The notes under the pieces: generated by a model | The model's database searches: none | Seen by the model: only the letters and a program-made list of their open reading frames with translations | Told to the model about the DNA's origin: nothing | Assembly: GCA_000467715.1 (NCBI GenBank) | Contig: AJFK01000017.1 | Location: 1 to 26,392, forward strand | Reading direction: 5' to 3' | Source: Hysterium pulicare CBS 123377 | Taxonomy: Eukaryota > Ascomycota > Dothideomycetes > Hysteriales > Hysteriaceae | DNA: 26,392 bases | Made by a program: the position numbers and the translations under genes | Shown: positions 1-26,392 of the stretch, piece after piece | Layout of the letters: each line of letters opens with the position of its first letter | Numbering within the stretch: the stretch's first letter is position 1

Positions 1-150
1 TTCTGAACTTGTAAGATAGATACGAAATACCATGTGGCCTTGTCGAAGAAGACAGGGGCCTTTCTCGAAAGAAAATGGACAAGATGCTTGTGATAAATCC
101 TGCATAGAGAGGAGTAGGACTTAAGGAGATTGGGATGACTGGTTAGATCA

Positions 151-4291: not shown

Positions 4292-4465
4292 CGTGATGTA
4301 TAACTCTGACTGGACGTTGACTACGGGTGGAAAATGGTGGAGAAAGTCTCGCATTGGGACAAGACGAACTGGCTGGTTCTGATGCTGATCGAAGACCGAT
4401 TTGAGGTCGTACTGCGTAGCTCAACTTGTGCTACCGACACCTTCGAGACAACCCTTCGAATCTAG

Positions 4466-5280
4466 TCAGTTTGAATGCATAGGAAGAGTGGGAGAGTTGG
4501 GGAGAATGTTATCTCCAGCAAAAGTGCCGAATCCCGGACGTGAAGCTGAGATACTCGATGTCGGACTGTCGGCAACTTTCTGCCGTTGTCGAGTTATCAT
4601 CATACTCCTCAAGTATTCATGATAGTCGCACTCGTAGGAGGTTGGAATGCGCGATAGAAGGCATAGGCAACCCAATCGGAAAGGTCCTCTCTTTGAGCTG
4701 TCCCGCTGTGTAGCAAGGGTCTATCGGTTCAAGCCAGTTCGCTACGGCAGGGTGGTTCGCATTGTTATCGGACCATCTAGAGGCAGCATCGGATTGCCAG
4801 TCTTGGAACCTCCGCAATGAATCATATCGTGAAATCCGCCCAAACCTTCCCGGCTCTTCCCTTGTTGACTCAGAAGCTGTTGTGGATAGTAGTGCTGAGC
4901 AAAAATGTATGACAATTGCAGAGCACCAGTTTCAGTCAGGAAGCATTTGTTGAGAATGAGATACGGAACGGCTCTGAGTCCACATCGCCGTCGCTTCGCC
5001 GTAGGATTCGTGGCTTCGACAGATCGAACTCTAGGAACGTCAACGAGACTCTAGGGTCAAGGAAGTGACTGCTCAACTTACTTGCGTCCACCCCATCTTC
5101 ATCACGTCGGTGGTGTTCAACTCGCGAGGGTCACAGTCGAGTGCTTGAAGTAAACTCTGGCCAGGATCTCGAGTTCCTGGTGGCAAAAGCTCTTGCCCAA
5201 GCGGCGAGCGAACGAAAGGAAGCAAATGGAACGACGGGTTTAGAGCCCATCGTAAGCTTCGACTTCGAGGGACGTTCTAG
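4466..5280 (-). pseudogene. Degraded minus-strand gene, family unknown
   Basis: Protein-like stretches follow each other on the minus strand in different frames. About 5270-5082 reads LLPPGTRDPGQSLLQALD and then ELNTTDVMKMGWTQ, ending exactly at a GTAAGT donor. After a 51-nt gap with an acceptable acceptor, another frame reads AVPYLILNKCFLTETGALQ and then YIFAQHYYPQQLL (about 5025-4755). A third frame near 4700-4466 reads SASRPGFGTFAGDN. The splice sites do not place these in one frame, so I read it as a broken host gene or one whose introns I cannot resolve. It lies upstream of, and on the same strand as, the 3201-4291 model. Its start overlaps the right flank of the hairpin cluster. Confidence 0.35.
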
Positions 5281-5301
5281 ACTGGTCAGCTTTTGTCTGA
5301 C

Positions 5302-5377
5302 CGATCCACCTAAGATCCCCCAGTAGCTTGTGGTTCGAAAGTCCTCCTACACTCGGATGGGAATCTTAGGTGGATCG
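5302..5377. repeat. Hairpin with 19-bp arms
   Basis: The left arm CGATCCACCTAAGATCCCC (5302-5320) pairs with 5359-5377 with one mismatch around a loop of about 38 nt. It immediately precedes a second, unrelated inverted-repeat element. It could be a tiny non-autonomous element, a transcription terminator-like hairpin, or the left part of one composite element. Confidence 0.6.
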
Positions 5378-5384
5378 TTGTAAG

Positions 5385-5475
5385 ACTCCCCGACTGGCGA
5401 AGTATTCGCCCGCCTCAGCCGAGGCAGCGAGATTTTCTTCTTCGGAGCAGGAGGATACTTCACCAGTCGGGGAGT
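5385..5475. mobile_element. MITE-like 91-bp inverted-repeat element
   Basis: Terminal arms of 23 bp (5385-5407 and 5453-5475) are inverted copies with two mismatches; the first 13 bases, ACTCCCCGACTGG, are identical. The 45-bp interior contains a small GCCTC/GAGGC stem. The structure fits a miniature inverted-repeat element that needs a transposase in trans. No clear target-site duplication is visible: the flanks (GTAAG and TATAC) are themselves partly complementary, extending the arm weakly. The family is not assigned and a lone hairpin cannot be excluded without other genomic copies. Confidence 0.5.
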
Positions 5476-5606
5476 TATACTGGCATGAATGAAGCTGGAG
5501 AGCAGGGTGCGGTGTTGGTGCCAAAATTTTAATAGAGAAGAGTGAGGTGTCCAAGTTGGACGAGGCGAAGGAACAAAAGGCGCTTCACACCCCTGTCAGG
5601 TCGCGG

Positions 5607-6061
5607 ATGCAACAGCCACCCCTGTCCAAAGGCAGGGATGCCATAGCAGGCTGTTGGTATGATGAACATATGAACAGTCAACAGCATGTCTTATGGCTGT
5701 CACAATATCGTCTTCTACCGAGGCTTAGATTTCCTATTAGCATTTTCTACATAGCAGCGGATATCGAGGCAAATATTCATATCGAAATGCTCAGAGCTTA
5801 TCCAGGACTGTTTGACTATCATCGCATGAAGCCTCGTAAGCATGGAGGTGAAACCCCTGTAACTGACACGGTGGTGCACTGCATTGTAGCAGAAGCATCT
5901 GCGAGCGCAGAGTGTCCTAACCTCCCGAATTCTGGCAGAAAGAGATCGAGGACCAAGACTTCAAAGGCCTAGTCCCCTGGACGCAAGATAGAACTGATCC
6001 ACAGGACGTTTCATGTGATAATTGTTTCCTTGCCATTGCATTACTGAGGGCCGACTCTTGA
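5607..6061 (+). CDS. Two-exon hypothetical protein, 124 aa
   Basis: Exon 1 (5607-5858) starts at the first in-frame ATG (MQQPPLSKGRDAIAG). Exon 2 (5939-6061) reads KEIEDQDFKGLVPW and ends at TGA. The 80-nt intron has a GTAACT donor and a clear CTAAC branch site followed by a GGCAG acceptor, and it joins two open frames in phase 0. The protein shows a hydrophobic/aromatic core (RFPISIFYIAADIEANIHIE) and an acidic C-terminal part with two close cysteines (SCDNC). The frame is open for over 100 nt upstream of the ATG, so the start may be wrong. No family is recognised. Support is the intron signature only. Confidence 0.35.
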
Positions 6062-7195
6062 CAACTGGGAAGCTGGTGTGTTGCGCACATGGCTATGCAG
6101 GGCATGATTGCCCTTGTCTCCCACCACATAATTTGAGCATTGCGATTCTAGATACAATGTCGCAGTTAAGTGTTTGGTTGACAGCAGTAACACTTTTCAA
6201 TTATAGTTGACACCAGTGATGATCCCCTTTCCGACGCTAACACCTGACAGATTGTAAACTGAACTTTGTGCAAAATGGGGGAATCAGCTCCCAAAATCTT
6301 ATTATGAAGCTGGAAATTCCTCCCACCAGATTCCACTAATATTCCGAATTGTTAAATCCTATCTACCTCAATCCATGCTCTCTTCCAGCACTCTATCCGT
6401 CTCAAACGGCCTAGTTACAGCATAGCAGAAACCTCACTTTGTGGGCTCGGTGCAGTGGCGGCCGCGAAGCCCACCCGCTGCTGGCTGAACAAAGACCAGG
6501 TAACAAACGGTAGAGGGAAGAGTTTTCCAAGCTTGGGAAACCGAAGGAATAAACAGCACGTACGAGCTGTCTGGATCCTCCCGGGCTCTGATGGTCGTAT
6601 TGACGGGGCCGTTTCGCTATGCCTCCGGTTGTTGGATAATCGTAGTCCTCGTTTGGGGTACCTGGGAGTTAGGTATTAGCCTCTAGCCTTGAGATCATTA
6701 AAGCATCCGTGATAGTCAGCTTTCCTTGGGCGCTTACCTCCATCGTTTTGTCGTGAAGAATGGTAAGAGGTCCACCGTTCAAGACGATACCCTAATACCG
6801 ATCGCCAAACAAGAGAGCCCTCAGCAGCGAAGAACATGTACGTGTATCTACATCGCTGCGATGTTAGAATCCTAATCTTCAAATCATCTGCAAGGGGCCA
6901 CTCACATTGTCGCATTCCTGACACCAGTCTGCATGCTTTGTTCTGTCAATGTATCTTTTGCGGCAGCATCGTCTCTCAGATGCTTGCGTTCCAACAATGA
7001 GGCATGACACACCCACTCAATGATGAGAGACTTCCGGAAACCACTTTTTGCTGACGTTCTCGAAGGAGGCAGGAGATGTGCCCGTCGAGTATAATGAAGA
7101 CAGTGAGGTAAGGTTTATCGCCAATCATTCTGTTTGCTGAGAATCATCAGTAACTGCTATGAGATGATATGTCCTCGTTCGCCATTTCACCAGAA
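6062..7195. other. No supportable gene
   Basis: Only short, conflicting frames. On the minus strand a brief protein-like piece (IVLNGGPLTILHDKTME, near 6795-6740) ends at a GTAAGC donor but has no convincing partner exons. The rest shows nothing I can interpret. A continuation of the glutamate synthase fragment that ends near 7211 was looked for here and not found. Confidence 0.4.
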
Positions 7196-7210
7196 CAAAG
7201 GGACGTACCT

Positions 7211-7605
7211 AATTTACTCCGTGTTGGCATGCCGTTTTCGAGGAGGCGAACTCTCCTTCCGCGATGAGTTTATTTTCCAACAGGACTTGGAGGCAGCGGC
7301 ACTGTTTCCGGACATTGGATATGGCTTCGCCAGGGCGAAGGGTGTGAGCAGGAGTCAGGATCAACCCAAGGTCGATCCCTTCAGCCTTTGCTGTCCGAAA
7401 GTCTTCCCTGATATGCAGAGTGTCTAACCCTTTTGTCGTTCATGTTGCGGAAGCCAAGTTTTGCTAAAATGGCTTTCATTTTGCCACGTAATAGAAGAAG
7501 TTGATTACGTGTTCTGGCGTTCCCTGGAATTTCTTTCGTACTTCAGTGTCTGGAGTGGCGATGCCACTTGTTCGGTGGCCTGTTGGCCCCAACCGCTGAC
7601 GTATC
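7211..7605 (-). pseudogene. Glutamate synthase (GOGAT) fragment 1, FMN-domain region
   Basis: The minus strand reads GIATPDTEVRKKFQGTPEHV then INFFYYVA, AILAKLGFR, REDFRTAKAEGIDLGLILTP then AHTLRPG, and finally ENKLIAEGEF. In the glutamate synthase large subunit this is the conserved run around NTCPVGIATQDPELRKKF and the end of the FMN-binding synthase domain into the following linker. It needs at least two frame changes and has a stop after FFYYVAK. Three residues of the CPVG motif are missing, so the FeS-associated cysteine is lost. Only about 130 residues of a roughly 2,100-residue enzyme are present. It is a truncated pseudogene piece, not a working enzyme. Its first part overlaps exon 2 of the gene model at 7476-7929. 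Confidence 0.85.
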
Positions 7606-7929
7606 CTAGAAAGAGTCGAGGTTAGTAATTGAAAATGAAGATGATGGCTCTGGGTTAGGTAGTTTTGAGTTTTCGGGGCCTAGGAAAATGGAAGCAATGT
7701 ATGGTAGAGGCCAAAGAACAAACCAGAAGACTCACCAAGTGGTTTCGGAGGCCATGCATCTTGACAGCGTATCTCCAATCTGGGGTTGGATTTGCGTTGA
7801 TACAGAAGTGAGAGTGAGAGAGGGAAAACGAAGTGAAGACAAAGAAGTTGCAGGGTCATGTAGCGGCAAGAGCCAGCCGAACCCGCAGCAACAGAAGCTA
7901 GCCATAACAGTACGAAAGAGCATGATCAT
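7476..7929 (-). CDS. Two-exon small protein with a glutamate-synthase-derived second exon, 107 aa
   Basis: Exon 1 (7929-7736) starts MIMLFRTVMASFCCC and looks like a signal peptide or membrane anchor. It continues into a Ser/Thr-rich stretch and ends at a GTGAGT donor. The intron (7735-7606) ends with a perfect TACTAAC branch site and a TTTCTAG acceptor. Exon 2 (7605-7476) joins in phase 2 and reads IRQRLGPTGHRTSGIAT and then EVRKKFQGTPEHVINFF before TGA. Exon 2 is the start of glutamate synthase fragment 1 in its ancestral frame. The product would be a small, possibly secreted protein ending in about 40 enzyme-derived residues. Enzymatic activity is not expected. It could equally be a remnant of the original gene's exon structure. 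Confidence 0.45.
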
Positions 7930-8740
7930 GACTACTACTCGAGCTTTCAATTGCAGCTTCTATACAACTATCTATTAAGTGTTCGAAATAGCACCACTAG
8001 AAGTCCGACCTACCAAGCCATCCCAGCCGTACCAGTAGTGCTCTGCCATAACAAATGCCCTGCGCGGTGATGCTAGTGGCTAAGGAACTTTCCAGAGAGA
8101 GTACTCTTAGGGACACCTACGCCAATGCGCAACGCCTGGGCTCAGCTCTTTTATCGTCCTATGTAGTCCTATCGCATGGACGCCTATTCCAATTCCACAA
8201 GCTCATAGCATGTGCTTGGTACCATCGTCGATCGACAACGAGCAAGCCTTGAAATGACCACATCCTCATTTTGTTGAAATATATCATGACATGATTCCGA
8301 ATGGTGAACACGAGGTGACAATACCCCCATCTGAAAGCGAATATGATGCCAATTTTCATCTCTCCGGTTCTTGTTCCGCTTCCTGGATGGAGCTTCTGAT
8401 TTCCATTGTAACCCTTGTTCTTGAACTGAATTATTGTGATAGGCTTGAATGAGTCCTGTTGGCACCGCTCTGTCGACTTCTTTGCCTGTCTTAATTGTGA
8501 GTACTCATGCTCTGCAGCGACAATTGGTTAGATTTACTTTACCTCGAATCCGACCACAATGGCTTCTCGACTTGACCAACTACCGGCTGGGTCAAGCCAG
8601 CATCCTCTTCTGCGCTGGTAGCATCGACCGGTTCCGTTGACCAATTCGGAGAAGGCCTGGGGGAGCTGTATTGGTCTTTCCTGATATCACGCTTTTGACG
8701 ACGAAGCCTGTGAGTTCTGGGGTACATAGACTTTGTGTTA
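7930..8740. other. No supportable gene
   Basis: A 65-codon plus-strand frame with an ATG (8055-8252) and overlapping minus-strand frames are open, but none has a splice partner, promoter signature or recognisable motif. Upstream of the 7929 start the minus strand has a weak TATA-like TTGTATAGAAG about 40 nt before the ATG. The rest is unassigned. Confidence 0.35.
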
Positions 8741-9001
8741 TTATCCGTATACTGGCTGTTTGATCGGATCTTGGAAAGGATCACCCATTTCGGTAACGCC
8801 ATCTTTTTGGTTGACCATGTGAAGGGACAGGTGGATGGAATGGCAGCGCCGCGGATCTTCGGCGCCCAGTCCAAAGACTGACTCTAAACGATGAGACCAC
8901 CATATCTGGGATGTTCGGGAAGAGGTTTCATTCGCAGATGGTTTCGGTCGCTGACAGTCTTCAAGGTCAAACGTCAAGCTGGCTGATGTTGAGGTGCTCA
9001 T
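8741..9001 (-). CDS. Hypothetical protein, 86 aa
   Basis: Single open frame from ATG (MSTSTSASLTFDLEDC) to a stop at 8741. The composition is polar and serine-rich at the N-terminus, with WWSHRLESVFGLG in the middle and QKDGVTEMGDPFQDP near the end. The first codons are built from the 13-mer ACCTCAACATCAG, which recurs in and before the gene at 12144-12656. No family is recognised. A second minus-strand frame through the same DNA is also open, so the reading is uncertain. Confidence 0.35.
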   Translation of the reverse strand: MSTSTSASLTFDLEDCQRPKPSANETSSRTSQIWWSHRLESVFGLGAEDPRRCHSIHLSLHMVNQKDGVTEMGDPFQDPIKQPVYG

Positions 9002-9313
9002 CGCGCTCAGAGACACTCAAATAGTCTGCCCTGATAAATTGAGCAAGTCCATGCAACAGGAGTGCACCATCGTGCATTCGGATTTTGAGCTGCCTGAGAG
9101 TACTGTGATGCAGCATCTTATCTTAGACTCCCACTCAAAACAGGAGACATAATGTAAAATAGACTCCCTCTCCCCTGGTGCCAATCGGTTGCGGCACAGA
9201 CCGTCAGCTTGCTGAGTATGGTGGCTCTCTTCGCAAGTGAGTGGAGGAAGTGTCCAATTTGTTTGGATGGATCTACCTGTCGCCTTGAAGAAGATGCCGA
9301 TATCTGTAATGTA

Positions 9314-9662
9314 TCACTTGTATCGATGACTGATTGGGAACCGCTGAAAGTAGCCTGGAGCTTCTCCAGAGCTTGTGCAGAAGACGAGTGTATCCTTCTT
9401 GGTCGCGGGTTTGAAACCACAAGAGTCACATTTCTGTTGTGCTATCGCTGAATGGTATTCCGAACTACAGAGACCACTTCGTCAGTTCTCCATCCTCGGG
9501 CATTATAGGAGAAGATACTTACAGAATGTATTCAAGTTCGAGACCACGCTCGTCGCCTTGTTCCACGCCCGAACCACCTGGCCTTGGAAGGGAGCGGCGT
9601 AATGGATCCACTGACATTCGTTGTCCAATCGCATCGTCGACCAACAGAGCCTGAACCGTCAT
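9314..9662 (-). CDS. Two-exon hypothetical protein with a CxxC motif, 96 aa
   Basis: Exon 1 (9662-9523) starts MTVQALLVDDAIGQRMSV. Exon 2 (9464-9314) reads SEYHSAIAQQKCDSCGFKPA and ends HRYK before TGA. The intron is 58 nt with a GTAAGT donor, a CTGAC branch site and a CTGTAG acceptor, joining in phase 2 to give one clean frame. The CDSCG motif plus a later Cys (LVFC) could bind zinc, but the spacing fits no family I can name. Within exon 2 a second frame is open for about 100 codons, so the end of the protein is less certain than the intron itself. Confidence 0.45.
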
Positions 9663-9741
9663 CCTTAGGAGTCAAAAAGTTTCATCAAGGCCGATGTAGA
9701 TGCTGACATCTCCCAGTACTTTCTTGGGAGGAGTGATACCG

Positions 9742-9861
9742 TTGGCGTGGTTGCAAGCCTGTGTTTACAGCGGAGAAAGTTGTTGTCGCATGTTGAGTCT
9801 AGTCTTGGGCTGCTGAGCTGTATACCGCCAGCTATTATCCTCAGGCTTGCAACCACGCCAA
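9742..9861. repeat. Perfect 20-bp inverted repeat around an 80-nt centre
   Basis: TTGGCGTGGTTGCAAGCCTG (9742-9761) is perfectly inverted at 9842-9861. The total span is 120 bp. Perfect arms in an otherwise decayed region suggest a recent element or selection. No target-site duplication is evident beside the arms. Confidence 0.7.
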
Positions 9862-9951
9862 AGTAACAGTATGTTGCTAGTCATAGAGGAACGACGCTCG
9901 CAGTGTTGGCGATGGAGGGGGGAAAAGTAGTACTGTAAAAGAGAGCTCTCA

Positions 9952-10104
9952 ATGGTCGAAGATATTTTGCGTGGTCTAACCGAGCATCTGCGCCAAGCCA
10001 CCAAGGCGAATGCTGGCCAGGCGGCTAAACCGCTGGAAGCGACAACGCAGTCCTGCATTGAGGATGGGTCTAAAGGATCTCCGAAGAATCCTTGTAGGAA
10101 ATGA
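9952..10104 (+). CDS. Small ORF, 50 aa, hydrophilic
   Basis: ATG to TGA with a clean hydrophilic helical composition: MVEDILRGLTEHLRQATK, then AKPLEATTQSCIEDG and a basic end (KNPCRK). It begins 90 nt downstream of the inverted repeat. An in-frame stop lies about 20 nt upstream, which supports this ATG if the ORF is used as one exon. No family is recognised. It could also be an internal exon or a chance frame. Confidence 0.3.
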   Translation: MVEDILRGLTEHLRQATKANAGQAAKPLEATTQSCIEDGSKGSPKNPCRK

Positions 10105-10367
10105 TCGTCTGCCCAATATCTACAGTGTGATAGAAGTCGTTTCAGCCATGCCTTGTGATATGTGAACTTGGTACAGTCCAGTAACCTTTATTAACTACAC
10201 CATTCATGACCAGCGACAGCGAATTTCCTGGATGAGAACGGGACTAGAAGGTACAAAAATGACAATTCAAGCTGGCGTTACTGGAGCATTGAACAGACCC
10301 ATAAAGCCAAAGTCACACGAAACATGATCATAGTTGATCAAACTGTTGGGAACAACAATACCACTAA

Positions 10368-10880
10368 ACGAAAATGAAGTACAGTACATCTCCGATCTCA
10401 GCAAACCCAAGCATTTCCAACAATACGACAGGATGGGTAGCCTTTCTCGTGCAGAGCGAACGCATCTTGCGCAATGAGTTCAAAAATCACGCCCTTCGTT
10501 CAGCTTGCCGTTCCGGTAAAGCAACGATCCATAACAGAGTCATGAATACCAAGAGCTTCGCAAACCCATGTGTCGCAGGAGCCCACCTCTTGTGGTAGCG
10601 GCCCACGCCACCCTCCACTCATGAATACCGAGAGCTTCGAAATCTGGGCGCCCTTGTAACTCTGAAGGGTGGGGATACCTCTATCGCACGAGTGCTTGTG
10701 GTTATAGATTAATTGTTCTGGGCTGAGCTTCTTCCCAAAGAGTCCTTAGCGGCTCTTCTTTAAAATGCACTCGATGGCGAGATATGGCAAATAACGTCAG
10801 CACCGTATCTGACAAGACCAGTGTGGTCTCTCATCGAGACCAGAACAAACGGGCGCCAGTGGTCTCTACTACCAATTGTC
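10368..10880 (-). pseudogene. Glutamate synthase (GOGAT) fragment 2, central domain
   Basis: Reading the minus strand, short matches occur in the order found in GOGAT: LVRYGADV, YLAIECILK, LQSYKGAQI, EALGIHDSVMDRCFTGTAS, KGVIFELIAQDAFALHEKGYP, then a degenerate copy of the VPGLPESGEY segment. These come from the central domain and the start of the FMN domain of the large subunit. Frames change several times and stops interrupt it. A roughly 79-bp duplication repeats the FEALGIH codons (TCATGAATACC-containing 21-mers at 10540-10560 and 10619-10639 on the plus strand). It carries about 170 residues' worth of the enzyme. In the intact enzyme this part precedes fragment 1, and it also lies upstream of it on the minus strand here, about 2.8 kb away with unrelated DNA between. 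Confidence 0.85.
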
Positions 10881-11055
10881 AGCACGACTGTCACAATCTC
10901 ACGTAGACTGTAAAGGAACTGACCTTTCCATTCCCAGCTCCTGCTGTGGCTACCCGGGGGGCAGCCAGTGGCTATGATGGGGCCAAAGCGCTGGATTGAG
11001 TGAAGCTATTGGCATCCGAAGCCAAAAGCAGCGAAGTGTGGCGTGAAAGTATGGC

Positions 11056-11289
11056 TTATGGTCGATGTCCGGAATGTGCTGTATGTGTATACTGCAGAGC
11101 GTGAGCATACTTGTCATCATTCAGGCTAGAGAAGCTCACCTGTCCATAGGAAGCGCCCGCTGGTATCGCCCGATAACCAGAGTACAGTGGAGCAGTATAA
11201 GGAGTGAAACTAGGAGCGTTTGGTGCAAAAGACTGCGAATTCTGGCGCGTAAGAGCGTTGCTGGTATTTTCGGGCGCCGTGGGATCCAT
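11056..11289 (-). CDS. Small Pro/Ser/Tyr-rich protein, 77 aa (61 aa if spliced)
   Basis: Starts MDPTAPENTSNALTRQN and continues FAPNAPSFTPYTAPLYSGYR. Low-complexity, polar and aromatic-rich, like many fungal disordered proteins. An in-frame 48-nt segment (11139-11092) has a GTGAGC donor, a possible branch site and a CTGCAG acceptor and may be an intron. Removing it keeps the frame and leaves YTHTAHSGHRP as the tail. Just upstream a 44-nt 5'-leader intron (11341-11298, GTATGT...CGCAG) is plausible, preceded by a CT-rich leader near 11385-11415. A short upstream ORF (MCAQRSSWGS) starts in that leader and could affect translation. No family is recognised. Confidence 0.45.
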   Translation of the reverse strand: MDPTAPENTSNALTRQNSQSFAPNAPSFTPYTAPLYSGYRAIPAGASYGQVSFSSLNDDKYAHALQYTHTAHSGHRP

Positions 11290-11435
11290 CCTCGTGCTGC
11301 GAACTATTAGCTAAAGCACCTCCATCAGGCGTCAGACATACCTTTGACTGTGAACCCCAGGAGGAACGCTGAGCACACATGTCAACAACGCAAAAGATGG
11401 TGGTTGTTTCAGAAAGGAAAGACGGAGGGTGGAGT

Positions 11436-11684
11436 CTAGTAGGCGAGGGATCTCAAAATGGGCAGTGGTTTAGCCGAGCCAATCACGCTCCTGGTGAACA
11501 ATGAAGGCGCGCCATTGAGCATTCCAAGGCTCCCAGGGCCTCTACCCTTTTCATTCCTTGGGGCAGGTAAAATGTAGACTGGAGAGCAGAAGCTCTTTTT
11601 ACAAGGCTGGCTGTATAAGATCTCAAACCGTAAATTCAGTACGGACTGCCCATATAAATAAAGTGTTTCAAGATCATCCAACAT
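11436..11684 (-). CDS. Weak ORF, 82 aa
   Basis: ATG (MLDDLETLYLYGQSV) to a stop at 11436. No splice signals or motif. A strong TATA-like sequence (CATATAAATAAAG, about 11652-11664) lies within it on the plus strand, which argues that this DNA may instead be a plus-strand promoter. Kept at low confidence. Confidence 0.2.
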   Translation of the reverse strand: MLDDLETLYLYGQSVLNLRFEILYSQPCKKSFCSPVYILPAPRNEKGRGPGSLGMLNGAPSLFTRSVIGSAKPLPILRSLAY

Positions 11685-11689
11685 GTTGC

Positions 11690-12140
11690 TTTCGAGGTCC
11701 CCCCATGTTTTTCGCAATTTAGAATCCTGACGAAAGGTGCTATGTCGTGATCAGCCGACATCACCACATACATACATGAAAAACCACAGACAAGTGCATG
11801 GAAAAATCTCGATTTCTGATTTCACTGCAAGCATCACGAAGACGAGAATTGGTGGAGAGAAGGCAGTTTGCTTCATCCCACAAAGCAAAAATACATGAAG
11901 TCCTCATCCACCATTCTCCTCAGCCAACAAGATCGAACACAATTACCGCCGTCTCATTGAGCATAAAGCTCAGAGTGCTGAGCCCTCTCAAGTTGTCCCA
12001 AGGTTTGACACCTGAGCCATGAAGCCACTATTGGATGCGAGTCATCTTTTTAGCAAGCAGAGCCGCATCGATGACCAATGGCGAAGGCAGACACTGGTTC
12101 GACTCAGCAGTGGCCATGTGATAATTTGAGATTGGAAGGG
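11690..12140. other. No supportable gene
   Basis: A 74-codon plus-strand frame (11798-12022) with an ATG is open but unsupported. A minus-strand stretch near 12096-12030 (QCLPSPLVIDAALLAKK) is protein-like and could be a further 3' exon of the 12144-12656 gene, but the splice phase does not fit. Confidence 0.3.
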
Positions 12141-12143
12141 AAC

Positions 12144-12656
12144 TTACATGAAGTCCTGGAGAAGTAATGGCTGGCGCTGGTGGCCTGATGTTGAGGTTTG
12201 TGCCTGGTGATGGGAGCTTGGCTGATGTTGAGGTGTACCGTGTGAGTGTGAGCTGTCATGGAGTCAGCACATAATGAGAGGACATTGAGATGAAAGAAAC
12301 CGAAGGACTTACGGGTATGAAGTCCAGCCATCAAAGTCGTGATATCGAGCACGGATGCAATACCGCCAGACATACCGGTGGCGAAGTGAGTTCGAGGTGG
12401 GTAAGTCGAAGCGTGCTCCCAAGGACCTTTCGACTGCCGTTGGGTTGGACAAACATGCGCTTGTCGAGGTATTGCCACTGGAGACGATCAGCAGCATTGT
12501 CAGTATCAATGATGAACAGAGAATTGGGAACACTTACCCGACATGCGGCGTCAACGAGCCGCCACCAGGCTCCCTTTGCCCTTCATGGCATCCTTTTTCT
12601 TCAGCGGTGGGGTGGTCATTGATGTATCTGGAAACTTCTTGGGTCGAAATTGGCAT
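12144..12656 (-). CDS. Three-exon hypothetical protein, 130 aa; exon 2 overprints a glutamate synthase fragment
   Basis: Exons are 12656-12538, 12477-12313 and 12252-12144. Both introns are 60 nt, with GTAAGT donors, CTGAC branch sites and CAG acceptors, and the joins keep one frame from ATG (MPISTQEVSRYIND) to TAA. The N-terminal exon is acidic and glycine-rich (REPGGGSLTPHVG). Exon 2 is basic and aromatic (RHRYVWRYCIRARYHDFDG). Exon 3 is Gln/His/Ser-rich with an internal repeat (TPQHQ and TSTSG are both coded by ACCTCAACATCAG). A TATA box and CT-rich leader lie about 65-125 nt upstream. Exon 2 contains the glutamate synthase fragment at 12327-12436, but in a different reading frame. The last codon overlaps a possible GTAAGT donor (ATGTAAGT), so a fourth exon is possible. 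No family is recognised. Confidence 0.5.
12327..12436 (-). pseudogene. Glutamate synthase (GOGAT) fragment 3, GXGXG-domain region
   Basis: One minus-strand frame reads HFATGMSGGIASVLDI, matching the hallmark run NFAAGMSGGIAYVLD in the C-terminal beta-helix (GXGXG) domain of the glutamate synthase large subunit. Just upstream KVLGST matches the preceding VVLGSTGRN segment with a roughly 18-nt insertion, and downstream a one-base shift gives HDF. Only about 35 residues remain. In the intact enzyme this part lies after fragments 1 and 2, whereas on the minus strand it lies before both, so the three pieces are not simply one collinear decayed gene. The open frame around it could otherwise be mistaken for a 124-codon gene. 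Confidence 0.75.
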
Positions 12657-12680
12657 GAATGCCTGGGACCACCCCACCGC
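12604..12680. repeat. 14-bp perfect inverted repeat
   Basis: GCGGTGGGGTGGTC (12604-12617) is perfectly inverted at 12667-12680, spanning the start codon region of the 12144-12656 gene. In that mRNA it would form a GC-rich stem sequestering the first ATG (12656-12654) in its loop. It could instead be a chance GC-rich inverted repeat. Confidence 0.5.
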
Positions 12681-12720
12681 CGATGGTAAATAACAGGACG
12701 TCTGATGTTGAGGTGGAATC

Positions 12721-12779
12721 TGAAGAAAAGTGAAGTGAATGAAGAACGGAGAAAGTTGGCGGGAGGTTCTGCTTTTATG
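12721..12779 (-). promoter_or_regulatory. Core promoter: TATA box and CT-rich leader of the 12144-12656 gene
   Basis: The minus strand has CATAAAAGC (about 12771-12779), followed by a pyrimidine-rich run with TTTCTCCGTTCTTCA and CACTTTTCTTCAG. The next ATG that opens a long spliced frame is at 12656. This layout is typical of filamentous fungal genes. The leader also contains one copy of the 13-mer ACCTCAACATCAG (about 12702-12714). Confidence 0.5.
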
Positions 12780-13237
12780 TCTGTGAGGTGAGGAGATGAC
12801 CACCGAGCATCGGGCCCACGGCAACTCCCATCCCTCGGTATGACACAGGAGTAATGACGCATCTGACTCAAAATGGTCATGCTGCTGCTTCCTATCGTGA
12901 TTTCGAAGTGACCTCGGCCTGATGTTGCCCCAGTGCTATGCCCCTTTCAGCGACAGGCTGACCAATTTCCAGTGCACGGGGTCTGTAGTCACAGAGGTGG
13001 TTTCCCAATGAGACAGCCCGAGGTATCACGACATAGATAGGAGAATGGTGTTCGCCGATTCCGGCGTTCCAGGTAGCCTATAGATGTAGAGTCGCCGTGC
13101 AGTGTACGTTTAGTCTTTGGGCCACAATTGAAATCCAGTTCATCGCTGTATCCTCAAATCCTCCTGCGCTCTGCTCACAAACCTACAATCCCCTGCCCCA
13201 GAAAAGCCTTCTATCTGCTGTTGCTGCTGCGCCGACA

Positions 13238-13676
13238 ATGGTTCAGCCAAATCTGAACAAGCCGCTGCCGCCGCTACCTAAGCGGGCAGGCAAGCGTGAG
13301 TCAACCTTCCCTCCCATGATCATATCAGGCTTTGGATAGCTGACTCTTTCCAGCCAATGGACTGGTGGCTTCTGCCAAGAAGCTGTACGTCCGGCTCCTG
13401 AAGCCGAGGAAGTGGGCGCTGGAGAAGAAGAGGAAGGCAGAGGAGATGGCCTGGTGGGTCGAGAAGTGAGGAGTCTTTGTGTAGGTCCTTCAAATCAGAC
13501 GTACGAGATAGCCTGCAGTGATTCTGATCTCAATTCGTAGGGCTGGGCTGGACTCTGCGGGCGGAGTCCACAATTTCATGATTTTCGATGCGCTTTGTGG
13601 TTGCGGAGAGCCAATGCATCCGAGGCTTCATTGCATGCGTAGGCATTATTTCCATGTGAAGCCAGAGTGGTTCTAA
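13238..13676 (+). CDS. Small basic protein, 57 aa (or 101 aa with a third exon)
   Basis: Exon 1 (13238-13295) starts MVQPNLNKPLPPLPKR. The 58-nt intron has a GTGAGT donor, a GCTGAC branch site and a TTCCAG acceptor. Exon 2 continues NGLVASAKKLYVRLLKPRKW and EKKRKAEEMAWWVEK, then TGA at 13467-13469 (57 aa). Alternatively, splicing GTGAGG at 13466 to the CGTAG ending at 13540 adds AGLDSAGGVHNFMIFDALCG and a Cys/His-rich tail (CGCGEPMHPRLHC), with the stop at 13674-13676 (101 aa). The leader is CT-rich. PLPPLP could be an SH3/WW-type ligand, which is inference. The basic helix may bind nucleic acid or sit in the mitochondrion. No family is recognised; the first intron is convincing. Confidence 0.5.
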
Positions 13677-13911
13677 TAGTCATACAGCAAGCCGGACTCG
13701 GGATAGCGGAGAGACCTAGGGTTGTGGGTGTTTCCGGAGGAGGGATGAAGCTTTTGGAACATGCTTGGAGACTTCTTGGGGTTTTTGGACGATGCGGTGC
13801 TTTCATGGAATTCTACGTAATTTTTGATGCCGCCTACTGCTTGCGCTGGTCGCTAAGCTCTTCTGAAAGCATTCTGAAGTTCTCTTGTGAAACGTGACAG
13901 GGCATTATGCT

Positions 13912-14430
13912 TCAGATGCGTGAAGACTGGATGATCCATGAGATGATACTATTGAGAATATATACATCTGTGGCTCTGCGAACGCCTTCAATGCCCACCG
14001 GCTGAGCAGTTCCAAACGAACACCACCAATCCGCTTGGTCCCAGCCTCGAGTCGCCCGCACAGCATCTACATAGCTAGGTCAGCACTTCAGTACATCTGT
14101 AGGATGCGGAGGTAGGATGTCCATGATACGAGGCTACCTGAAAGTAATAAAACTTCCAAACTGATGCTGGCGCACATGACCAAAGAACTCCGGCTTGAAG
14201 CAGACTGTCAGCATTTCGAGCCTTTCTCGTGACCACGAGGGAGGAGGTAGATGAGCGTGTGTAATGGGTATTTTCAATGTAGAGGCAGGGCGGTCTACGC
14301 TTTGGGGCATAGCTTTGAACAGCGCCAATATAAGTGTTGCGTGGTAAGACCGGAAATGAATGAATGGTCTAGTAATGAAGCGTGGAATTTGCTTTGCCGG
14401 TGTAATAATGGATAGCGTCAATATACGCAT
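13912..14430 (-). CDS. Possible two-exon gene, product unknown
   Basis: A 98-codon frame starts at an ATG (MRILTLSIITPAKQIPR, 14430) and ends at a TTTCAG^GTAGCC junction near 14135. About 70 nt on, after a CTGAC and TGTAG acceptor, a strongly protein-like frame reads AVRATRGWDQADWWCSFGTA and then VGIEGVRRATDVYILNSI, to a stop near 13912. The splice phases of the two long frames do not match; the matching upstream frame is shorter (MCASISLEVLLLS). Either the upstream exon is misread or the gene is damaged. No family is recognised. Confidence 0.3.
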
Positions 14431-14929
14431 TGTGCGGTCAGGTTGGGTATCGATATGCGGGTGATGAAAAACTAGGAATGTCCTAATGTTAACGAGACTT
14501 GTCAGCTACTACTCTGAGGAAAAGAGACAATGATCGAGCTCGCTATAGGCCATTGGGTGTTCTGGATTCTGGTGGCGGTGAATATGTATATGCAATATTT
14601 GGTTTTGAATAGTTAGAAGGAATAGAAGCTAGCCTCCCGACTAGGAATATGATCCTTACGATTCGGCATTGAGCCAGACTGCGAAGTAGCCTTTGAATGA
14701 CACGAGGGATTGCCAACTTCAGACCGTTCTCCATGCGGACTCAGCGAGATAAATGTGTCAATCGTGGTTGTGAAGGAATTGATTGCGGCAGCATGTCTCC
14801 TGCAGGAGAAGATTCTCGTGTACCCGAGATCGTGCATGTGCGTCAAAGGTCGGGATGTAATGGCTGGCGGCACTGATTACTGTGAAGCTTCTTCAAGCTG
14901 TTGATGTGCTAATATGATAAAGACAGAGT
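14431..14929. other. No supportable gene
   Basis: Overlapping short frames on both strands at 14613-14904, all without splice partners or motifs. Nothing else is visible. Confidence 0.35.
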
Positions 14930-15513
14930 GTGTTAGCAAACGATACGATAGTAGTATTAGCCGTTTACATACTTGATGGCTCCTCAAGGCCTGCTTTTAA
15001 CATGACTGCTTGGACAGAAAATGCCAGCGCCTGCAATAGCCATGCTTTCGCCTTCGCTCGAGAGAGCACAAGTGTGGATTGCGGAGCAGACCAAAACTCT
15101 GTCATTGTGGACCCGGCTGAGTATGAATTCTCCGAGTACAAAGATCAACTGGAGAAATTGTACCTTTGAACGGACCACCCGTAATCCTCCATTTCCTGTT
15201 CAAGTGTCTTCTTTGTCTGCATTGTCTGCTTCTCGTGAACTCCTTGTCCAGGAACGCGTGGATTTACAGGGATGTCTCACAGTCGTTCAAGACGTTCGTA
15301 ATAAAATGAGGACTTGGGGTTGGTACAAGAAAGGGTGAAGATGAGAGGCATTCCCGAAGAGGATATTGATGCTTGTGTTTACAGAGCTGCTCGGCCCACA
15401 TAGATAACGAACGAGGGACGTGTGTTTGAGCAAGAAGTGCTTCAAGGCTACTTTCCTAGCGAACGTCAGCAAAGGAGAAAGGAACGATGTGATCCAGGAG
15501 ACTCAATTAGGTA
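14930..15513 (+). pseudogene. Possible Clr5-domain protein relic
   Basis: Plus-strand pieces in changing frames read EYEFSEYKDQLEKLYL (to about 15167), NKMRTWGWYKK (about 15302-15335) and VKMRGIPEEDIDACVYRA (about 15334-15390), followed by a charged tail (PSERQQRRKERCD). The fungal Clr5 domain has the pattern of an initial W/Y-E-x-YK...LY helix and, about 35-40 residues on, a basic K-x-W-G-hydrophobic-x-K motif. The first and second pieces fit that loosely, with a longer gap that could hold an intron. Several stops interrupt it. The match rests on two short motifs, so it is tentative; an unrelated decayed gene is equally possible. Confidence 0.3.
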
Positions 15514-15900
15514 GCTATGGCAAATAAATGTCGGGGTGAAGCTGCCACGGTAGATTTGGCTGGTCGTTCGGGGCTCCATTCGTAGTATCAAGCTGGGAAA
15601 AAGTGTCAAAAAGTTTTCTGAAGCAGGTCGTAAAATCAAATCAGCCGCCAGCGCAATGGGTTATTATGACTCTCAGTGGCCTAATGTTATGAAGACAAGG
15701 TATGTTCCAAGGAGTATGCTCCATGTGATGGGCGAAATGGATTAGGCCCTAGTAATGGCGTGCCGAAATGGCAGCTTGGGTTTCAATGTTCCTAGCTGCC
15801 GCTTCCGCCTGTCAACCGCTTAATGTTGAATACCTTCCGCCCCAATCTTTCTAAAACTTTCACCAACCACCAATTTACACCGATTTGAAATCTAACATAG

Positions 15901-16080
15901 TCCTGCGATGACGAAAACGGAATCTGTATCAACGGCATTCCTGGCGATGTCAACCGCGAAGACACAAGAAATGCTTTCCCCTTCCTGCAACCAACAACCT
16001 CGACACTCTGTGTCAATCTCGACCACATTCATTTTGGGAGTCTCATTGGACAAACTTCGTATCTGAACAAGGGGACATGA
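15901..16080 (+). CDS. Possible exon of an unknown gene
   Basis: Following a CATAG acceptor, one frame reads SCDDENGICINGIPGDVNRE and then LCVNLDHIHFGSLIG to a TGA at 16078-16080. It looks coding (acidic, with domain-like hydrophobic spacing). A candidate upstream exon (KEYAPCDGRNGLGPSNGVPK, about 15703-15770) is in the right place, but no splice joins them cleanly. Family unknown. Confidence 0.25.
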   Translation, partial: SCDDENGICINGIPGDVNREDTRNAFPFLQPTTSTLCVNLDHIHFGSLIGQTSYLNKGT

Positions 16081-16364
16081 TTTCAATAATGTCTGGAGGC
16101 GATAACTCCGGCTGGTACAATGTCTTACCCACCACCCATTCCAGAATGCATCTGCTGCCCATCAAAGTCTTCTTCCAGGCGAACTTTGGCGTTATCGAGG
16201 CGAACGAGATGGAGGAGCACGGGTTATCTCCAACTCAGCATCCACTTTGCTTCCATACCATCAGCGCTGATGAAAGCCTGTTGTACGCGTATCGAAGCGG
16301 CATGGTTGATACTGTAAGCAAGCGAAAGACCCTCTGGCTTTCCAATCTACCTACTCCATGCTAA
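16077..16364 (+). CDS. Hypothetical protein, 95 aa
   Basis: ATG (MISIMSGGDNSGWYNVL) to TAA. The central part reads FQANFGVIEANEMEEHGLSP and then ISADESLLYAYRSGMVDT, where a GTAAGC donor occurs. The true exon may stop there (about 16314). The EMEEHGLSPTQHP-coding DNA is duplicated in diverged form about 237 bp downstream. No family is recognised. Confidence 0.3.
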   Translation: MISIMSGGDNSGWYNVLPTTHSRMHLLPIKVFFQANFGVIEANEMEEHGLSPTQHPLCFHTISADESLLYAYRSGMVDTVSKRKTLWLSNLPTPC

Positions 16365-16482
16365 TGTCAATCGATTATGTCAGTCAGTTTGAGAGCTGTA
16401 CAACAAAGCAGAAAATCGGCGCCAAAGCAACTCGCAAATGAGTAGGATGGAAAAGCACGGGTTTCTCCAACTCGGCTTCAAC
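16206..16482. repeat. Diverged direct duplication (about 40 bp, 237 bp apart)
   Basis: Segment 16206-16245 (core GAGCACGGGTTATCTCCAAC) matches 16443-16482 (core AAGCACGGGTTTCTCCAAC) at roughly three quarters of positions. It probably reflects an old local duplication. Confidence 0.55.
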
Positions 16483-17096
16483 ATTTCTCGCGGCCACTAC
16501 TGAATAATCCAGAAGCTCATCGAAGTCGAGATGAGGTAGGTCTGGCCACAATTCAAAACGAGAAAAGGCACTCACAACGTGTCTTTAGAGGTACGAAAAC
16601 GGACGACTATTCACCCGACTATCCCGAAATTACATCCCAACCAAGGCCGGGTAACCGTCGCATCCCAGGAGGTAGGTTCCTTTTCCAGTAGCGGCAGAAC
16701 GAACCCATTAGTCACAACCTACAGCATATTTCTCAATGGTGGTGGACTGGAGGTTGGGCAACGGTGCGGAGGTAGATGTAGGCCAATGGGACTGATTGCG
16801 TATACATTTAATGTCATTGGTCAATTTTCTATCACTCGAAGACTCCATTTTCGTGATTTCACGTCTTCAATTCTTCAATGGCTCCCAAAAGAGCTCGGTT
16901 CTCTTTATAAACCCATCATATTGTCATGCGGACGGGAAAGCCATTCATCATCTGTCCCAGAGCTCGTTCATACACTTCAGGATGCTGCTTTCGCCGAATG
17001 CTCCCCTCTCAAGCCATTCAGATCTGCGTGAGATAGTTAGCCATGAAGTGTAAACAAGCAAAAGGCTTCATAATATTTCCCTACCGTCTCCATATC
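16483..17096. other. Long open plus-strand frame without a start; unassigned
   Basis: The plus strand is open from 16579 to 17031 (150 codons), but it begins with GTG and the first in-frame ATG is around codon 70. Inside it a GAG^GTAGGT donor-like site occurs near 16670. Composition (many Ser, Arg and Leu, no motif) does not distinguish a decayed exon from chance. No gene is called. Confidence 0.3.
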
Positions 17097-17342
17097 TCAG
17101 ACCTCTAAAAGTTCGATACCGAATTCATTCCTTCTTCTCCTCCTCTCCCTCGCCTCCTCCGCAAAGAGAAAGACCACCCATTCCGCCCCGTTGTGCATCC
17201 AGAGAACGAGGCCTAAAAGGAAGTCTACGATAAGGGCCAAAGAGAGCGCAAAACTGTAGAAGAGGAGGAAGGCGGCGGCGGACAGGACTAGAACCGACAG
17301 GATTGCCCGAAGCAGCGAGACGAGGACTTCGAGGACAGACAT
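17097..17342 (-). CDS. Small membrane protein, 81 aa
   Basis: Single-exon frame from ATG (MSVLEVLVSLLRAIL) to TGA. Residues about 6-48 are almost entirely hydrophobic (LSVLVLSAAAFLLFYSFALS, then LIVDFLLGLVLWM), enough for two transmembrane helices. A third, short hydrophobic piece (AEWVVFLFAEEA) leads into a very basic stretch (RERRRRRNE) and an acidic tail. The Kozak-like context and a probable 5'-leader intron (branch CTAAC, acceptor GCTTAG, about 60 nt upstream) support expression. By the positive-inside rule the basic C-terminal tail would face the cytosol. No family is recognised. The clear hydropathy pattern makes a chance frame less likely. Confidence 0.5.
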   Translation of the reverse strand: MSVLEVLVSLLRAILSVLVLSAAAFLLFYSFALSLALIVDFLLGLVLWMHNGAEWVVFLFAEEARERRRRRNEFGIELLEV

Positions 17343-17797
17343 TGCGGCGGTGAGTGGGTAATGCGGTAAGTTATCTAAGCAACACAGAGTTAGCTGGGCT
17401 AGAGAAGGAGAGTGTAAGTATCAATTACAGTGTGTGTTTGTGGAGCTCTCCGGCTTTGCGGGCTGGCTACGCTGTTGAATTGAGCTGCGCGATGGTGTCG
17501 CAATCCAGTTCGACGCTGTACGAGCACGATCCTATGAGGCTTTGGAGTGCACGTGATTCCGAATTGAGTAGTAGGATGATGCAACAACAGATTGTAAAGT
17601 GGCCTCGAAAAGGTGGATGTTGTTGTGTGGTGGTGAACGGCGTGCACTGGTACTTTTCCGCCTATGTTGACAGTGAGGCGCAATGAGCCGAAGTACCCAC
17701 AATCAATACTACACGCACTTCAAACATTGAGAGAGCCCATTAAATAAGATAATCTAATACGTCGTTCAATAAAGCATTGATCTAATGCTGCATACAT

Positions 17798-18052
17798 TTA
17801 CTGCGTTGCACTATCAAGCCGACGTGTCAAAACGCGAAGCCCCAAACCCCAGAGTAAAAACACCAGAGAAGATTTTCTTCCACAAGACCTCAGATATACT
17901 GAAGCACTCATCGAAAAAAAGAATGGGTCGAACCCAGAGGTAGCCAACAAAAATTCCTGACCCTCGCATGCTGGGTGTAACTCCATGCGAGTTATTCCAA
18001 AGGAATAGTCAGAGGTAAGAACACCGGGGTGCTCTAATGCCCAGTCCGACAT
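17798..18052 (-). CDS. Array copy A: hypothetical protein, 84 aa
   Basis: ATG (MSDWALEHPGVLTSDYS) to a stop at 17798. It lies behind a TATA/CT-leader module (18096-18144) shared with copies B, C and D. The 3' part of the DNA (17871-17928) is the block conserved in all four copies. In the listed frame it reads FDPFFFSMSASVYLR. In another frame it reads RPILFFDECFSISEVLWKK, which resembles copy D (CPILFFNPVCALSVTWWKK), so the true frame is uncertain. Part of a locally amplified, diverging family of unknown function. Confidence 0.35.
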   Translation of the reverse strand: MSDWALEHPGVLTSDYSFGITRMELHPACEGQEFLLATSGFDPFFFSMSASVYLRSCGRKSSLVFLLWGLGLRVLTRRLDSATQ

Positions 18053-18095
18053 CCTGTGCTCACAAACAAAAAAGTTAGTGAGTGTGCAGTAAGTC

Positions 18096-18144
18096 TGAGG
18101 AAAAAGAAAAGAGGAAGAAGTGGCGCGGTGGATTTTCTTTTATG
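18096..18144 (-). promoter_or_regulatory. Array copy A: TATA-like box and CT-rich leader
   Basis: On the minus strand CCATAAAAGAAAATCC is followed by CTCTTTTCTTTTTCCTCA, the same leader core as copies B and D. The first ATG is about 45 nt further on. The upstream GATC element found in B-D is not recognisable here. Confidence 0.5.
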
Positions 18145-18830
18145 GACCTCATTCTACGCTATTACGATTGTGGGTTAGATTCTGGTTACATCATCGCCGC
18201 TGAGGGTAGTTAAGCGAGGCTCTGGTGCGTTTGATTGTGGTGGGAGAGCGGAGGGTAGATGGTAGGTTCTTCAAGGTTCTTCAAGGTGGTAGTTTTGGTC
18301 GCGGGGAAATGCACTCGTAATACCTGATAGTGTAACTACTTACAAGCATATTCTGATACTTATTCGGTTTATGTGGGCTGTTCTTAAGCTTGTCGCTTGA
18401 AGTTTAGGTGGTTGATGAGTCCTTGGGTTCTCCAAATGTGAGGCTACACACAGCTCCGGAAAAAATGGGAATCGCAGCTTTTCCTTCAGAGAGCTCAACA
18501 CCACACTCACAAACAGCTTTTCCAAGCTATTTCCATAGATTTGATTTTGTAGCTTAAGAGTCTAGTCTTCACATTCACGTAAACTTTTGAAGTGTCTATG
18601 TCGTGTGGCGCTGAATTAACAGGAAAATCAAGAACCACTACGACGCCAAGTTCACCCGCTACTCAAATAGAGATTGAATACCTTCAAAATTTGGGTTTTT
18701 CGAAAGCCTATGCATGATCTCAGGTGATTGGCGCAAACGCAATTGTTATCGTATAACACCGGGCTGAAGAACTCACAACAGTGCTAGTCACTGAGAGAAT
18801 TGCAATCAATGTAGAGATTGCAAAACAGTA
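18145..18830. other. No supportable gene
   Basis: Spacer between array copies A and B. A tandem GGTTCTTCAA duplication lies at about 18268-18287. Short minus-strand frames (18340-18525) are unsupported. Confidence 0.4.
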
Positions 18831-18866
18831 GAACATCTTCCACAACGCGCTGGCAAGCCAATGCAG

Positions 18867-19034
18867 TCATCGAAAAAGAAAGGTCGTGTCAGCTCGAGGT
18901 AGTGCAATACGAGCGACACTGTGAGCCGGTGGTATAGCAAGCCAGAGGCCACCAGCGCTGTTTTCAAAAAGAAAAGAAGGGTCCAACCTTTTACAGTCGG
19001 TATGCATCCACACTGTCATCAGTGTGCCATACAT
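18867..19034 (-). CDS. Array copy B: small ORF, 55 aa
   Basis: First ATG after the copy B promoter module: MYGTLMTVWMHTDCKRLDP, then a short aromatic/alanine stretch and the end TTFLFR before TGA. Copy C also ends in PFFR at the same aligned position. The conserved block (18831-18885) overlaps the 3' end. In another frame it reads ALWKMFYCFAIS, matching the LWKK part of copies A and D. Function unknown; a decayed paralogue or a short non-coding transcript is possible. Confidence 0.3.
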   Translation of the reverse strand: MYGTLMTVWMHTDCKRLDPSFLFENSAGGLWLAIPPAHSVARIALPRADTTFLFR

Positions 19035-19075
19035 AAAGGCCGGTGCCCAGATGAACGCTAAGCAGGCCGACCGTG

Positions 19076-19124
19076 TGAGGAAAAAGAAAAGGGGGTGGTG
19101 AGGGGGACGAGGAAGTATTTATAT
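19076..19124 (-). promoter_or_regulatory. Array copy B: TATA box and CT-rich leader
   Basis: The minus strand has AATATAAATACTTCC followed by CCCCCTTTTCTTTTTCCTCA. The TATA box is about 165 bp from the oppositely directed TATA box of copy D, so B and D share one bidirectional intergenic region that also holds a GATC...CTGGCG element. Confidence 0.6.
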
Positions 19125-19286
19125 TGAGCCCACCGCGCTAGCGCCAGAGGTTGATCCTGTGACGCCGTCGCCAGGCAGACGCTCGGAAGATTCTGGATTG
19201 ATTCCGAGATCTCCCGGCAACCAATATCCTTCCTAACATGGTTTAGTGTGCGTAGTTGATCTGGCGGGCAGCGTGCTGGGCCGAAA

Positions 19287-19336
19287 CATATAAATACCTG
19301 GCCCTACTCCTAAGCCTTCTTTTCTTTTTCCTCAGC
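19287..19336 (+). promoter_or_regulatory. Array copy D: TATA box and CT-rich leader (plus strand)
   Basis: CATATAAATACC (19287-19298) is followed by CTTCTTTTCTTTTTCCTCAG (19317-19336). About 30 bp upstream of the TATA box, GTTGATCTGGCGGGCAGC matches copy C's upstream sequence closely. Confidence 0.6.
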
Positions 19337-19405
19337 CCTTGCCCCGGTGCTTATACTCTCAAACTCGGTTGCGACCTGGGCGCTCAAGAATGCCTTCGGT
19401 CTAGT

Positions 19406-19555
19406 ATGGGCCTTCGGGTCTGTACTATGGAGTTGGGCAACTCCTGCGGCCTACTTTTTGATCGACCTTGGGCTTGTCCCATTCTCTTTTTCAATCCTGT
19501 TTGCGCCTTGAGCGTGACTTGGTGGAAGAAGCTTGAACTGACTGGTCCTTGGTGA
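19406..19555 (+). CDS. Array copy D: small ORF, 49 aa
   Basis: ATG (MGLRVCTMELGNSCGLLFD) to TGA, downstream of the copy D promoter module. The end CPILFFNPVCALSVTWWKK resembles copy A's second frame (RPILFFDECFSISEVLWKK) at about half the positions, the best sign that a protein was once encoded by this family. An alternative frame in the same region is strongly hydrophobic (NAFGLVWAFGSVLWSW). Membrane association is possible; function unknown. Confidence 0.35.
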   Translation: MGLRVCTMELGNSCGLLFDRPWACPILFFNPVCALSVTWWKKLELTGPW

Positions 19556-19927
19556 TTTTGGCATGCTTCAGATTTGTAGACACGACCGAAATTTCATTTG
19601 CCTCCGAAATGTGGACTTGTGCTTGAGTATTCACAGTGTTTGTAATTGTGGCATGGAATATATCACAACATTAGGGAAGTGATCACTTTTGAGGGATTGA
19701 AAACTTTTCAGTCCACCGCCACCTTTTTCAATGAGTGAAGACTTTGGGGAAGGTGGAATCGGCATGTAGACTATCTATACTAAGGGACTTTCTGTAGATA
19801 CAAGTACTACAGTGAACTCATTGCAAGCCACAAGCCAGGGAACTGTAACTTGACAGATTGAGACCAATTCAGGCCTTTGTAAGTGCATCTGGATTTCTTC
19901 CTCAACCCATCGCACAAGGCGACGAAA

Positions 19928-20050
19928 TCAACGAAAAAAAGGCATTCTGAAATCAAAAATTGCGCCGGTGAAGCCCGCCGAAGCAGGATTCATACCAACC
20001 AACCACCACGCTGTGCAATGCAGGGCGACTGGCAGATCAACCGTAATCAT
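19928..20050 (-). CDS. Array copy C: small ORF, 40 aa
   Basis: MITVDLPVALHCTAWWLV to the ending FRMPFFR before TGA. It lies after a leader intron with a GTAAGT donor (about 20132), an ACTGAC branch site and a CTTAG acceptor (about 20080). The 3' block (19892-19949) aligns with A, B and D; in another frame it reads ECLFFVDFVALCDGLRKK, again resembling the LFF...KK pattern. Same uncertainty about the coding frame as in the other copies. Confidence 0.3.
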   Translation of the reverse strand: MITVDLPVALHCTAWWLVGMNPASAGFTGAIFDFRMPFFR

Positions 20051-20197: not shown

Positions 20198-20250
20198 TGT
20201 GTGGGGGGCCGCCAAGCTGTCGCCAGATCAACCCAACGCACTAGGCTCTA

Positions 20251-20683
20251 AACAGGATTAAGAGCAGGCTTCCACCAGATTCTACTGCATCACGTGGAAA
20301 GTGGTCGTATTTTAGGGACGTGCCTTGATACGGACTTCTGAGTAATTGCCAGGCTCTCAGCAATACGTCATAGCGCCGCATTGAGTTTCGGGGCTTTCGG
20401 ACTAGTTAGTGACGTGTTCTGGAAAATATCTGGTAAAATTAAGCGATCAATGAGTTCTGAGACGTTAATGAGCTATTTTCGTTCTTCTGAGCAAGAACGA
20501 TAGCCATTTTGGAGACATTTACACACTTCGAAGTCGTTGCTGATCCTGTGTTTCAGTTCAATGCCGTAGTGTAATTTTGGGGCTTTAAGGGCTTTTGCGA
20601 GTCAGATTACCGTCTCATTTCGCGTTTCCGAAGATCACCGGGCTGTAGTAAAGTTTTGGTCTAATTTCCAAGCGTAGCGTGCA
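20251..20683. other. No supportable gene
   Basis: No frame of note on either strand and no repeat or promoter signature beyond the copy C upstream element. Confidence 0.45.
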
Positions 20684-20965: not shown

Positions 20966-21098
20966 TTATCTCCCCGTAGTACACTTACTCCTTGCAATCA
21001 TAGTGAATACAAGCGTAGAACTGAGTACATTGCATGTCCAGAATTCAGAATCAATTCTCTTGTAGGAGTGGTTTGGCCCCTGAGCTTGCTCTCGTCGT

Positions 21099-26346: not shown

Positions 26347-26392
26347 ATTATTCGTTCCATTCTCCCAGTCGTCCAAGTGGTGTGGGAAGCCA

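Follow-up and report, generated by a model that had tools for sequence, protein, structure and literature searches.

Is the spliced 130-codon reading frame on the minus strand of a Hysterium pulicare contig a gene in the making, or a path left open by accident through the remains of other genes? The window, the whole stretch of DNA analysed here, is the complete contig C15 (26,392 nucleotides) of a 37.2-Mb genome in 596 contigs; its gene structure and introns appear fungal. A sequence-only reading had proposed that the frame, whose exon 2 contains glutamate-synthase (GOGAT) DNA read in another frame, is a candidate for de novo protein birth by overprinting. A letter-by-letter check recovers the frame exactly as that reading described it, from ATG 12656 to the stop at 12144 and ending in TAA, with two 60-nt introns, and by eye it is preceded, as also described, by a CT-rich leader and by the TATA-like CATAAAAG, 116–123 nt upstream of the ATG. 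We consider it quite probable that the locus is a fossil mosaic of captured gene pieces and that the 130-codon frame runs open across these pieces by accident. The features on which this answer rests are collected in Table 1. Also by eye, a third candidate intron (GTAAGT...CAG, 54 nt, 12147–12094, minus strand) begins at the last codon of the ORF; its donor holds the stop codon, which makes it uncertain where the model ends on its 3′ side.

Table 1. Features of the window that bear on the candidate ORF.
Feature	Position	Strand	Details
Candidate ORF	12144–12656	minus	best read as a probably incidental frame over a fossil mosaic
Exons	12656–12538, 12477–12313, 12252–12144	minus	checked letter by letter
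Intron 1	12537–12478	minus	60 nt; GTAAGT, CTGAC, CAG
Intron 2	12312–12253	minus	60 nt; GTAAGT, CTGAC, CAG
LSM12-like copy	12572–12603	minus	32 nt, exact; source C535:46388-46419, sense orientation; in exon 1
Inverted repeat	12604–12617 / 12667–12680		14 nt, perfect; reported as 24-nt arms at 83%
SmG (snRNP G) copy	12419–12484	minus	66 nt, 79%; intron end and start of next exon; donor YLDKRLFVQLNGSRKVLG
GOGAT fossil, focal	12330–12385	minus	donor FAAGMSGGIAYVLDMYHDFD; 75% over 60 columns, 4-nt gap
Second GOGAT fossil	10384–10820	minus	70% over 438 columns, 3 stops, many frame-breaking gaps
Third GOGAT fossil	7218–7565	minus	81% over 360 columns, frame-breaking gaps
Fossil mosaic tract	1–20233		30 alignments, 21 donor loci, 18 contigs

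The introns are more than chance would supply. When the window was resampled by a first-order Markov model (60 windows), two consensus introns together with a frame of at least 130 codons appeared in 0 of 60 windows with strict sites and in 1 of 60 with looser sites; the window itself holds four strict donor sites, against a mean of 0.4 in the resampled windows. With the introns held fixed, a frame of at least 130 codons was present in 10.3% and 8.0% of 20,000 resamplings. Codon usage, trained on 47 ORFs (20,714 codons), prefers none of the three frames, which score −0.027, −0.012 and −0.035 per codon, the first value being that of the 130-codon ORF. This score still lies inside the coding range (5th percentile −0.040), and the test has little power, codon usage being a poor separator of coding from non-coding DNA in this genome: in-frame coding windows average 0.092 and wrong frames −0.080, on either side of the ORF.

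Searches for relatives of the 130-residue protein returned no homologue in Pfam, in the PDB or in the rest of its own genome, and none in two scanned collections of contigs, one from prokaryotic genomes and one viral. A conserved gene hidden in another frame was set aside, the alternative readings having no Pfam match and a 127-residue frame no PDB match; so were a structured RNA, with no Rfam match at the gathering score, and a tRNA, none being found with bacterial settings. On the plus strand, a possible small two-exon ORF at 13238–13469 (MVQPNLNKPLPPLPKRAGK...), which has no Pfam match, points away from the 130-codon candidate.

The exons themselves are built from recognizable pieces of other genes. 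Exon 2 encodes, one frame off (phase 1), the peptide FATGMSGGIASVLDI, which is homologous to the product of the GOGAT gene that this genome carries on contig C74 (PF01493), and in this respect the sequence-only reading identified the source correctly. When the window is compared with the 9.5-kb GOGAT locus, the focal alignment has an E value of 3.9e-5; scaled to 37 Mb this becomes about 0.15, so that the match alone is not significant genome-wide, and the piece is absent from the matches listed by the whole-genome DNA searches. GOGAT is nevertheless an established donor, because two strong GOGAT fossils (E 8.5e-89 and 7.8e-42, window 1–20000 against the genome) share its contig and strand. The ORF reads the focal piece off frame (phase 1) before the 4-nt gap and in the GOGAT frame for a few codons after it; the sequence-only reading names neither this gap nor the two other gene copies that the exons hold. 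Nine of the 11 mismatches in the focal piece fall at third codon positions, and GOGAT mismatches number 33, 25 and 82 at codon positions 1, 2 and 3, a pattern that fits a copy that would have decayed freely beside a constrained donor changing mainly at silent sites. Within one GOGAT fossil, a short stretch (10540–10563) is repeated at 10619–10642.

A second piece, from the gene for snRNP protein G (SmG) on C416, identified from manually joined exons, covers the end of intron 1 and the start of the following exon. Most of its 66 nt lie within exons, where the ORF reads it off frame (phase 2), and its significance is E 0.0043 in a genome-wide protein-level comparison and E 2.9e-9 for the window against the 2-kb locus. 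Significant alignment is limited to an intron end and part of one exon, so the copy falls short of a complete Sm-fold coding sequence: the resemblance to SmG exon 1 is not significant (54 of 300 shuffles as good), nor is that between the next SmG exon and the sequence after intron 2 (32 of 300). Intron 1 is placed where the SmG gene has an intron and can therefore be read as a fossil, captured intron. This reading is positional only, because the body of intron 1 does not resemble the SmG intron (shuffled sequences do as well in 300 of 300 cases) and only its 3′ end aligns to SmG. In the alignment, the SmG acceptor is lost at the aligned place and the acceptor of the ORF lies 6 nt upstream of that place. 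Most simply, we infer, intron 1 came in with the captured SmG piece; no source is assigned to intron 2. Because the copy includes an intron end, the copying took place at the DNA level, and the same intron end disfavours a retrocopy origin.

The third piece, in exon 1, is an exact copy (E 1.3e-6) from a gene on C535 that carries a Pfam AD domain. We call this gene LSM12-like after the type of that domain, the domain itself coming from Pfam. The ORF reads this copy off frame as well (phase 1). An inverted repeat (12604–12680) directly abuts the copy, and together they have the shape that a template-switch scar would be expected to leave. The three pieces make up 147 of the 393 exonic bases, and all are read out of frame by the ORF, bar the few GOGAT codons.

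The focal pieces belong to a much larger tract of the same kind, which reaches from the first base of the window to 20233. Assigned alignments cover 4,613 of these 20,233 bases (23%), a lower bound, and 77% are without an assigned source. The alignments are 32–438 columns long, run in both orientations and range from 65 to 100% in identity; several overlap one another (11051–11356 and 16477–16601), and their count of 30 leaves out matches that were not fetched (C289, C243, C315, C387, C569, C87, C180, C159 and C300:35072). The genome search, in which 30 of 31 candidates were scored, places 36 matches to window 1–20000 on 25 other contigs, at E values of at most 0.001. The part of the window from 20001 onwards adds three non-self matches, confined to its first 200 bases, and no donor match was found in 20234–26392. 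Pieces of a single donor can lie far apart and inverted, as do those of C14 at 9031–9397 (minus) and 15906–16206 (plus), and one piece can be nested in another: a C63-like piece (15980–16102) separates two pieces that directly follow one another in the C14 donor (1195|1196). At the start of the window, a 139-nt tandem repeat of about 3.9 copies occupies 144–688, with related units to about 1143, and a diverged inverted relative of part of this unit lies at 13104–13140, upstream of the candidate ORF.

The copies are broken as well as scattered. Frame integrity was scored where a long ORF of the donor spans the match, as it does in 8 of the 21 donor loci, with GOGAT entered in two parts; 12 of the 16 alignments contain a stop or a frame-breaking gap, and the other four are 43–74 nt long. 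The focal GOGAT piece is among the 12, and the LSM12-like and SmG pieces, which lie outside this set, are simply truncated. Among these eight loci, GOGAT and a Ras-family gene pass the Pfam cut-off, and the rest are considered coding by ORF length only. The pieces are thus truncated, frame-broken copies with homology to functional-looking genes elsewhere, as pseudogene relics are. Repeat-induced point mutation was considered and set aside, as C>T plus G>A changes from donor to window are only slightly in excess of the reverse (285 versus 240). The window has 32 ORFs of 110 residues or more; 28 of these were tested, and none reaches the Pfam cut-off. The longest ORF between stops has 181 residues. 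Across three slices of the window the longest ORF is 163–181 residues, as opposed to 312–1467 in all 15 control 10-kb loci, 5 of which come from C74 and C535, already known to bear genes; in the remaining 10 controls the longest ORFs are 332–1166 residues. We speculate that the tract may be an accessory or otherwise non-essential region.

These observations suggest a sequence of events. Pieces of functional genes (SmG with its intron edge, GOGAT, the LSM12-like gene and others) would have entered a gene-poor tract as DNA copies, on separate occasions over a long period, as the identities of 65–100% suggest, coming to lie nested and inverted and then decaying. Capture would probably have proceeded by templated filling during the repair of DNA breaks, no signs of a transposon being seen. 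Intron 1 would be left over from the SmG piece, and the 130-codon frame would arise by accident across the patchwork; we infer that this ORF is without function. Against the fossil reading, the strict introns exceed chance and both are intact in consensus, which would not be required of a long-dead sequence.

Two rival explanations concern what the locus does. Protein birth would make the locus a young, living gene for a spliced microprotein put together on pseudogene scraps of essential genes, its intron from snRNP-G taken over, its introns and promoter-like leader in use, and its frame overprinting SmG, LSM12-like and GOGAT DNA. The rarity of such a frame over two consensus introns in the resampled windows and the TATA-like and CT-rich leader seen by eye speak for it, and the GOGAT DNA read off frame, as the overprinting proposal had it, and the introns beyond chance both stand. 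The proposed birth of a protein does not follow from them: the exons carry three gene copies, a frame of this length is expected in 8–10% of cases given the introns, codon usage (a weak test) gives no signal, intron 1 sits at the place of an SmG intron, the candidate intron at the stop codon leaves the 3′ end uncertain, and neither Pfam, the PDB, the genome itself nor the prokaryotic and viral contigs yielded a homologue. We regard a living gene as very improbable. A putative spliced non-coding transcript from the fossil patchwork would account for introns better than chance and for the lack of a frame preference, but consensus sites may go unused, and this explanation too appears improbable to us, if less so.

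The two other explanations concern where the pieces came from. Delivery by a gene-capturing transposon (transduplication, or a Helitron) is compatible with an incidental ORF. Such elements are known to pick up pieces of host genes, and there is a fungal precedent: DNA transposons transduplicate in Pyrenophora tritici-repentis, where copies of host gene pieces lie outside their genes as they do here (PMC3538342). The copies there are multi-copy and stand between terminal inverted repeats, whereas no element is seen at the present locus. No transposon domain was found in the 28 of 32 ORFs tested, no long paired terminal repeats are among the repeats listed for the window, although short or decayed ends could be missed, and no second copy of the focal DNA appeared in a search that also missed the GOGAT and SmG pieces. 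Transposon capture therefore strikes us as unlikely. That the GOGAT-like peptide is a chance resemblance would agree with the genome-wide E of the match taken alone, but the two strong GOGAT fossils that share its contig and strand and the concentration of mismatches at third codon positions leave this with hardly any probability.

Two familiar classes of sequence come close to the fossil mosaic. Gene relics, or pseudogene fragments between genes, are like the pieces here in being short copies of functional genes that have decayed and lost their frame; the locus differs in that its pieces are packed closely, nested in one another and scrambled across some 20 kb, come from at least 18 contigs and lie in a tract without long ORFs. 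Templated insertions at repaired DNA breaks are short copies of genic DNA from distant sites, with sharp borders. The exact 32-nt piece beside an inverted repeat is like them, but most pieces at the locus are diverged, and the repair mechanism proposed here is tentative. Among the literature matches listed, none describes a dense mosaic of this kind without a transposon, a statement that holds for those matches only.

The idea that pieces of pseudogenes are revived in de novo ORFs is credited to Ohno (PMC5247788). It predicts a new frame crossing pseudogene scraps, as at this locus, where the candidate ORF is known from sequence alone. Since the idea is already published, expression of the locus would make it an example of a route already proposed and not a new kind. 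If a living microprotein gene were nonetheless the truth, the functional donors in its own genome would allow steps of its birth to be dated. On the preferred reading, that of an accidental frame across a fossil mosaic, the locus illustrates how a convincing gene model, complete with introns, a leader and 130 codons, can emerge from gene scraps, a pitfall wherever de novo genes are claimed. The tract, with nested pieces from at least 18 contigs, would serve as a natural record of the capture and loss of fragments in a compact genome.

Such mosaics may extend beyond the window. In a comparison of three scored control loci, which leaves out a fourth (L019) that may be richer, 10 kb of control L016 yield five fragment-like matches, with 3 of 4 candidates scored, and 10 kb of L021 yield two, with 2 of 3 scored, so that the mosaic is denser in the window but not unique to it. 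L016 (G000:C3:20001-30000) also matches split and inverted pieces of contig C156, and mosaics of this kind may therefore not be confined to the window. The third control, L018 (7 kb), gives besides itself only two contig-end overlaps: its own end (C100:26931-26961) shares exact stretches of 30–31 nt with C4 and C101, which probably reflect the overlap length of the assembler.
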